Assembly (NCBI GenBank): GCA_023053545.1
Contig: JAKZAN010000001.1
Coordinates: 11,238,024 to 11,302,023 of the forward strand
DNA length: 64,000 nt
Direction: 5' to 3'
From: Lepidurus packardi
Taxonomy: Eukaryota; Arthropoda; Branchiopoda; Notostraca; Triopsidae
In this document: positions 3,170-4,145 of the stretch, piece after piece
Numbering within the stretch: the stretch's first letter is position 1
Layout: each line of letters starts with the position of its first letter
Notes under the pieces: generated by a model
Seen by the model: the letters and a program-made list of their open reading frames with translations, nothing else
Told to the model about the DNA's origin: nothing
Database searches by the model: none
Translations under genes and position numbers: made by a program

Positions 3170-4138
3170 AATTGCCACCAAGCTGCAACTCTTGTCTCAT
3201 TAGCTTCATTTCTCGACTGTCCCCATCAGTGGCGTACGTGAGGACCTCGATTCCAGATTGGCACAGTACTTCTGAAACATAGTCTAGTCGTCGTTTGACA
3301 TCTTCGCTCGTAAAGCGGTTGTTGCTACCAAAAACGCAAATACAGATAGGGGATGCTCCGATTGCCAACGGCTGCGCCATCACTACGAAAACGTTTGTAG
3401 CAACGTCCAACGTTCTGTACAACCGAACTAAGTCCGCTAGGCTATTTGCTTCATTGATTCCAATTACTGGTACTCCGTTTACTCCGATGGGCAAACTAAA
3501 GCCTATCACTGTGTTTGTCTCAGAGGAGTATTCACGCTTTCCAGTTATACTGGTAGCGTCTTCGGATAACGCAACAACGCAAGGAAAACCGTTATTGTCT
3601 AAGTAGGCTTTCAATTTTTCCACTTGAACCTCTCCTTCTCCAAACGAACGCACGTGCTCATTAACTTTGGCTCCGATTGACCTTGGACTAGGTAAACAGC
3701 CTATCATATTCGTGACAAGCGTCTGATAGAGTGTTCTTCCTCCAACAATCCATACGTACGATGCAAACCGTACCAAACTTTCGTCGTCGTATCGAAACCC
3801 ATGACGATCTTTCTGGGAATTTCTAACAGCTGAATTTAACAGTCTAACTAGTAAGCTTTGCTGGCTGCCTTTTGCTTGGCATAAGGTAGACAATTGCTTA
3901 ACTGAACCAAAGCAATTAGCTATAACGCTGATACGATCTCGCTGTTCCTTACAAAGGTCTCTTAGAAGTACGTTGTCCCGCTCCAGTTTCTTTAAAACGT
4001 TTAGCACTTTGTAATATTCGGTTATCCGAGGCTGTAAGCTGTCTCTTTCATCCAGATTTCTTCGCATTTCTTGACGCCTATACACCCGACTATTCCATTT
4101 CACGGGAGCACTGTGGGTCTCAGTAGCTCCCGTTATTA
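3170..4138 (-). CDS. transposon ORF2: N-terminal half of RNase-H-like transposase core
   Basis: The frame is open from the ORF1 end; its first own ATG lies about 13 codons into the unique part, so fusion by frameshift is attractive. A coiled-coil-like stretch (codons of about 25-65) precedes a region with VALSEDATSITGK and later YATDGDSREMKLM. I take the Asp residues in SEDAT and DGDSR as the first two acidic residues of a DDE-type core. I recognise the same pattern (SEDxT, GSNNRFTSEDV, DGDSR) in an uncharacterised family scattered in arthropod and cnidarian genomes. The coding sequence leaves the frame at 3169, where a GTAAAG donor begins a 62-bp intron. Confidence 0.65.
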
Positions 4139-4145
4139 AAAACCC
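4102..4145 (-). promoter_or_regulatory. putative -1 programmed ribosomal frameshift signal
   Basis: Reading the minus strand, ORF1 ends CTG GGT TTT TAA. The heptamer G GGT TTT (4145-4139) fits the X XXY YYZ slippery rule. A 5-nt spacer (4138-4134) follows, then an 8-bp perfect stem (ACGGGAGC 4133-4126 with GCTCCCGT 4109-4102). That stem is extended by four more pairs (4124-4121 with 4113-4110) around a 7-nt loop. A -1 slip gives GGG TTT TTA ATA, which is the open frame of ORF2 with no stop. All three components have canonical spacing. Function is inferred. Confidence 0.65.

Follow-up and report, generated by a model that had tools for sequence, protein, structure and literature searches.

Organization of the element

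The window, the whole 64,000-nt stretch of Lepidurus packardi DNA analysed here, carries on its minus strand a DNA transposon of 4,765 bp (915..5679) that is bounded by the terminal inverted repeat CAAGGGGTTCG and an 8-bp target site duplication, GCTTCGAT. It belongs to family A of two families that are described below and referred to as A and B. ORF1 (4136..5077, minus strand; ATG at 5077, TAA at 4138-4136) encodes 313 amino acids with an N-terminal domain and a CxxC...HxxxxH finger-like motif, CLRCKTNFSC...HLSQKH (4331..4426, minus strand). No Pfam family matched ORF1 at E<=1, and none matched the family B ORF1 at E<=5. The ORF2 exon (3170..4145, minus strand), which is read in the -1 frame, covers a linker and the first part of an RNase H fold with the motifs SEDAT (3566-3552) and DGDSRE (3227-3210, both minus strand); its Pfam match to TNP-like_RNaseH_N (E 0.003) lies under the gathering cut-off. 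A 62-nt intron predicted by comparison (GTAAAG...TTTTCAG; 3108..3169, minus strand) separates ORF2 from the ORF3 exon (1375..3107, minus strand; stop at 1377-1375), which encodes the remainder of the transposase including SQPCE (2514-2500).

Subterminal tandem repeats of the GTTAAACTTTGG type occupy 1026..1284 at one element end and repeats of the TTAAACTCTG type occupy 5349..5537 at the opposite end. These GTTAAAC-rich arrays differ between the two ends and are perhaps binding sites for ORF1 or the transposase. The element lies inside a tRNA array (window positions 111-7003) for which ARAGORN reported eight tRNA-Pro and one tRNA-Ser in 8 kb.

A candidate frameshift signal where ORF1 ends

The heptamer GGGTTTT (4139..4145, minus strand) satisfies X XXY YYZ, is read as G GGT TTT in the ORF1 frame and is followed directly by the ORF1 stop TAA. 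A 5-nt spacer, TAATA (4134..4138, minus strand; TAACA or TAACC in family B), leads into the proposed stimulatory hairpin (4102..4133, minus strand). In this hairpin an 8-bp stem formed by ACGGGAGC (4133-4126) and GCTCCCGT (4109-4102) is continued beyond a bulged T (4125) by a 4-bp inner stem, ACTG (4124-4121) with CAGT (4113-4110), and closed by the 7-nt loop AGACCCA. An earlier note on this DNA had described the heptamer, spacer and both stems, and they were confirmed with coordinates exact to the base, as was the placement of ORF2 in the -1 frame relative to ORF1. The same note had ORF2 opening 36 nt before the heptamer and lacking an ATG near its start. ORF2 does open upstream of the heptamer, but the distance is 18 nt (4163), and it overlaps ORF1 by 28 nt through the ORF1 stop; its first ATG, at 4067, indeed lies 78 nt downstream of the heptamer's first base. 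The open stretch of ORF2 is 8 codons longer in three other copies (363 versus 355 aa).

The arrangement matches a canonical -1 signal in having a 0-frame X XXY YYZ heptamer, a spacer in the range of ~5-9 nt, a stable downstream structure and a downstream -1 ORF under coding selection. The excerpted text of PMC5009743 lists G_GGU_UUU with the heptamers on which mammalian ribosomes shift most. A stretch of 79 nt from the window copy folds at -22.1 kcal/mol (z -2.43), with 7 of 200 dinucleotide shuffles as good, and the family B stretch has a z of -2.86 (4 of 200 shuffles as good). On both strands of the 64 kb, a stem of at least 7 bp follows a heptamer register in 46 cases, and hence heptamer plus stem by themselves are not rare; the junction stem has the top G+C fraction (6/8) among these 46 cases. 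When the ORF2-frame peptide was kept fixed and codons were drawn by usage, 23 of 5000 draws for family A and 142 of 5000 for family B folded equally well. Stems of at least 8 bp arose in 303 (A) and 293 (B) of the same 5000 draws, or ~6%, a frequency explained by the ORF2 peptide itself favouring a palindrome. Chance is best excluded by the conservation of the signal in a diverged family. A pseudoknot between the hairpin loop and downstream RNA was also considered and is unsupported, with 1096 of 2000 (A) and 298 of 2000 (B) shuffles as good.

Copies in the genome and evidence for mobility

DNA and protein searches of the genome (108.6 Mb, 344 contigs) recovered six near-identical junction-bearing copies, which constitute family A, and five copies of the diverged family B. 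In this genome all 150 scored matches to the cuticle-protein family PF00379 pass its cut-off and 14 control genomes have none, as befits an arthropod host. All six A junctions and four of the five B junctions have GGGTTTTTAA with GGT TTT TAA in the 0-frame, a 5-nt spacer, a stem of 7-8 bp and ORF2 in -1. The fifth B copy is full of stops and reads AGGATTTTAA; its heptamer is lost and its stem retained. An in-frame arrangement of ORF1 and ORF2, named in the earlier note as the mark of a simple indel, was looked for and seen at none of the 11 junctions, and 10 of 11 keep GGGTTTTTAA together with the -1 relation. On this evidence a simple indel was rejected.

Two family A copies (A1 and A2) show 3 differences in 4,765 bp, have all ORFs open and are flanked by distinct 8-bp duplications; they are therefore separate, recent insertions. 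Perfect 8-bp duplications at both ends were found for four of the six A copies and one B copy. When elements with ORF1 only are included, 8 of 9 two-ended elements have a perfect 8-bp target site duplication (A1, A2, A3, A5, B1, L031, L032 and L039), and that of L047 matches at 7 of 8 positions. In other copies one or other of the ORFs is broken. At C16:198824-224097 the ORF3 matches of a family A copy are spread over ~23 kb, as if split by later insertions.

Elements carrying only ORF1 were seen with perfect 8-bp duplications at C1:9671387-9673050 (L031), C1:8295835-8297496 (L032) and C3:968448-969835 (L039), and with one end each at C4:8912751 (L034), C1:11739727 (L042) and C1:11742647 (L041). 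They have inverted repeats of the CAAGGGGTTCG type and no ORF2 within ~1.5 kb, and several end inside the finger-like motif, the second half of which is lost. These deletion derivatives are possible repressor-type elements. The 280-aa ORF1 relative at C1:12290131-12290931 (L029) has the whole finger-like motif and no ORF2 close by, and may be either a domesticated gene or a deletion derivative.

Compensatory changes in the stem

In family B the stem ACGGGAGC/GCTCCCGT of family A is replaced by GCGGGAGT/ACTCCCGC. Loss of the stem in intact copies, a further case that the earlier note had set against a functional signal, was not seen; the stem is kept with two compensatory pair changes. Hairpin energies are -19.5 kcal/mol in family A, -17.2 kcal/mol in three B copies and -13.6 kcal/mol in one B copy without the outermost stem pair. 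The innermost pair of the inner stem is broken in all B rows counted. Pair counts were based on 6 distinct rows from 7 of the 11 junctions, four identical or nearly identical A junctions being left out. Among the 12 pairs, 8 are invariant, 2 are changed on both sides and 2 depart by unpaired cells only. Paired cells amount to 91.7%, as against 33-55% after sliding by 1-3 columns. Of 500 shuffles, none attained the observed share of paired cells, and one in each case attained the covariation score and the count of both-side cells. The observed count of both-side pairs was attained in 185 shuffles and that of further pair types in all 500. The covariation term of RNAalifold was +0.17, that is, no bonus. 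Because one genome and two families only were compared, the covariation consists of two pairs on one split.

The compensatory changes draw their weight from the coding frame, where amino acids are altered, pairing is restored and wobble sites stay as they were. All four stem substitutions are non-synonymous in ORF2 (T/A, A/V, A/T and V/A), and the four wobble positions within the stem have not changed, though over ORF2 as a whole the families differ at ~0.6 of synonymous sites. When the 16 stem bases were given four random changes, 8 Watson-Crick pairs were left in 0.3% of trials (2.4% when G-U was allowed).

Selection on both sides of the frame break

Selection was assessed by comparing one A copy, that of the window, with one B copy (C3). 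In ORF1, 142 of 305 aligned residues are identical (pS 0.79, pN 0.34; pN/pS 0.44). The corresponding values are 229 of 324 for ORF2 (pS 0.61, pN 0.17) and 409 of 575 for ORF3 (pS 0.68, pN 0.16). Judging from these substitution patterns, ORF2 and ORF3 have stayed coding since the split of A and B, behind the break. As the frame break is present in both families, it is by parsimony older than their split.

In codons 3-29 past the slip site pS is down to 0.31, as expected where RNA structure overlaps code, and pN is 0.28, which is not low. Identity in the -1 frame is not superior just past the slip site, with 16 of 27 residues against 17 of 27 and 14 of 27 in the other frames; the -1 frame stands out there by its openness and its BLOSUM score (83 versus 64 and 59).

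Relatives and predicted fold of the transposase

ORF2 alone found a single match in the protein database, a Daphnia magna protein with 43% identity, and no relative in viral_contigs; the ORF2 profile had one match among PDB sequences, at chance level. An AlphaFold prediction for the window ORF2 (3 sequences) reached a pLDDT of 40 and was set aside. For the spliced ORF2+ORF3 protein, at least 23 relatives were obtained among 7,997 candidates scored, those named being from thrips, weevil and biting midge. Loose patterns around SEDAT, DGD/DSD and SQxCE, the candidate sites of the catalytic Asp, Asp and Glu, occur in 20, 21 and 21 of 24 database relatives, some of which are fragments. Judged by the model of a relative, the transposase core is predicted to have the fold of Drosophila P-element transposase. 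A THAP domain was not found at the ORF1 N terminus (Pfam; E<=1 for family A, E<=5 for family B), and therefore we did not file the element as a canonical P element. Kinship to IS3 and to Hermes-type elements was considered alongside; the best fold matches are the P element, Transib and RAG1. By similarity, the Frankliniella fusca proteins P0004 ('Calcium-binding protein 4') and P0007 ('PDZ domain-containing protein 2') are transposase relatives, and their names look wrong.

Some of the insect relatives have counterparts of ORF1 in the same chain. The weevil protein P0019 (1263 aa) aligns with residues 22-299 of the family B ORF1, weakly, at 19% identity and E 0.001, and has its transposase further on. 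P0013 (E 1e-4) and P0011 (E 8e-4) match the N-terminal part of ORF1 ahead of the transposase. In the multiple alignment, the thrips protein P0004 shows a finger-like stretch, then a KWNSR-like region and then the transposase; its pairwise comparison with the family B ORF1 gave only E 0.14. For the family A ORF1 no relative was found below E 0.05 among 24 proteins, and the ORF1 profile had no match at E<=0.001 among the 7,997 database candidates scored. From the layouts of these four proteins it follows that the predicted fusion has a domain order seen in single chains elsewhere.

How the frame break may be bridged

We have observed the signal, its conservation, the compensatory pair changes, selection before and after the break, insect counterparts in one polypeptide and the mobility of the element, and we consider it very probable that in this autonomous cut-and-paste DNA transposon ORF1 is joined to ORF2 and ORF3 by programmed -1 ribosomal frameshifting. 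The ribosome would be made to pause at G GGT TTT by the hairpin that begins 5 nt further on, and in a fraction of passes it would slip back one base and continue in the frame of ORF2, which would itself be joined to ORF3 by the intron. The fusion junction would read ...AELGF-LITGATETH..., with ...STAELGF-LITGATETHSAPVK as the predicted spanning peptide, and the slip product would be a 1,213-aa fusion with the finger-like motif and the catalytic part. Slippage would presumably occur as a minority event; the majority of ribosomes would terminate at the UAA adjoining the slip site, yielding the 313-aa ORF1 without the transposase core.

ORF1 alone may bind the element ends and so limit transposition, its DNA binding being suggested by the finger-like motif only. 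That it may repress is proposed by analogy with the short products of IS elements and the shortened repressor of the P element, and deletion derivatives in which the beginning of ORF1 and the inverted repeats are preserved fit this idea. The frameshift may on the other hand be real and ORF1 alone be devoid of a role, the signal merely keeping the transposase scarce. We regard this as possible, though somewhat less likely than not. Several ORF1-only elements end inside the finger-like motif and lack its second half, which speaks for it, but the stop directly at the slip site gives a defined product in both families. ORF1 is also under selection, though the fusion alone would explain that too.

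Joining of ORF1 to ORF2 by a spliceosomal intron, with the hairpin incidental or acting as a splicing element, appears very unlikely. An intron does seem to lie between ORF2 and ORF3 of the element, splicing connects the ORFs of P elements according to the excerpted text of PMC7776569, and a GTAAG is present at -271 in family A alone. However, when an intron joining ORF1 to ORF2, the remaining objection anticipated in the earlier note, was checked on the DNA of both families, no good candidate emerged. We scanned donors from -240 and acceptors to +200 at equal offsets in A and B for introns of at least 30 nt. The single shared, phase-compatible GT-AG pair (donor +2, GGGTTTTTA; acceptor +139; 137 nt) consists of weak sites without the features of the ORF2/ORF3 donors (GTAAAG, GTAAGA) and acceptors (TTTTCAG, TTCTAAG), and its splicing would remove ~46 residues including KWNSRxYRR, which is kept in both families. 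The last 600 nt of ORF1 contain no strong donor at a place common to both families. The predicted ORF2/ORF3 intron serves as a built-in control, and it behaves unlike the ORF1/ORF2 junction. It has drifted from 62 nt in family A (GTAAAG...TTTTCAG) to 55 nt in family B (GTAAGA...TTCTAAG) and differs in phase (2 versus 1 mod 3), with the joined peptide CG(V/A)LNGW(R/H)WFYA kept in both. The ORF1/ORF2 junction, in contrast, shows no change of length or phase in 10 of 11 copies, and past the slip site the two families align without indels for 90 nt or more.

The same fusion would result if RNA polymerase slipped on the run of five Ts and added a U to a share of the mRNAs, an explanation that we hold to be highly improbable. 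A run of five Ts is short for transcriptional slippage. The fixed 5-nt spacer and the G+C-rich hairpin fit the geometry of ribosomal frameshifting, and slippage of the polymerase leaves the conserved GGG unexplained, even though one added U yields the same frame and some bacterial IS elements use this device (excerpt of PMC5009743). Equally slight is the prospect that ORF2 and ORF3 are made separately, from an own transcript or by termination-reinitiation, and that no fusion exists. Two-ORF DNA transposons with separate products, such as PIF/Harbinger, do occur. Here, however, the first ATG of ORF2 in family A has no counterpart at that place in family B, the stretch ahead of it has no stop in -1 in either family, and the KWNSR region within it aligns with insect proteins that extend further upstream; separate products also leave the conserved heptamer and hairpin unexplained. 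A frozen indel in a dead lineage spread by a transposase acting in trans would fit the several copies that are broken elsewhere, but is scarcely credible given that both families have the break at an identical decamer, that their ORF2 and ORF3 are under purifying selection and that two near-identical copies have distinct target duplications and all three ORFs open.

Comparison with known systems

The -1 signals of the G GGU UUU/A type in retroviruses and dsRNA viruses have the same heptamer, spacer and stem geometry as the signal proposed here, but belong to elements of another kind with unrelated gene content. In bacterial insertion sequences of the IS1 and IS3 families, an upstream DNA-binding ORF is followed by a catalytic ORF, often in -1, and the fusion is the transposase; the level of frameshifting sets transposition and the ORF1 product alone can regulate (excerpt of PMC5009743). 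Our element matches the two-ORF -1 layout of the IS3 type, with DNA binding by ORF1 suggested by its motif. It differs in its eukaryotic host, the predicted intron in its catalytic part and its P-element-like fold, and the likeness to IS1 and IS3 probably reflects convergence and not common descent. We give about even chances to the fuller proposal that an arthropod transposon with a P fold has convergently evolved the IS3 strategy, in which the -1 shift would set the ratio of ORF1 repressor to transposase and the ORF1-only derivatives would be dispersed repressors.

In the P element itself a 66-kDa repressor is made by retention of intron 3, as stated in the excerpt of PMC7776569. The break described here is instead bridged by a candidate frameshift signal, and ORF1 has a CxxC...HxxxxH motif where no THAP domain was found. 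In eukaryotes, the transposase gene KAT1 of Kluyveromyces lactis contains a -1 frameshift that is bypassed by programmed translational frameshifting, which limits expression; KAT1 is domesticated, has hAT kinship and has lost transposition in vivo (excerpt of PMC4763223), whereas the present element is mobile, multicopy and predicted to make a separate ORF1 product. The telomere-bearing elements of the ciliate Oxytricha, which are DNA transposons, are said to need frameshifting for expression, and the excerpted text of PMC5009743 describes no signal for them. The earlier note knew of no well-described case in this kind of eukaryotic DNA transposon. This stands for mobile animal elements among the matches listed, but the domesticated yeast gene KAT1 is a precedent. 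Among the literature matches listed (titles and starts of abstracts, mostly open literature) there was no -1 signal in a mobile eukaryotic cut-and-paste transposon.

How eukaryotic DNA transposons curb their own transposase is still a live question, and according to the abstract of PMC3687335 the only documented mechanisms of autoregulation came from bacteria until that study reported one for Hsmar1 in 2013. A translational switch in a P-like element would, if true, add another means of control, one that is compact and can be tested directly. It also carries the warning that intact two-ORF elements may be annotated as broken in genomes. Signal type, IS logic and P fold are each known; their combination in a mobile animal element appears new among the matches listed, and if our reading is true, the bacterial arrangement has evolved in animals too.
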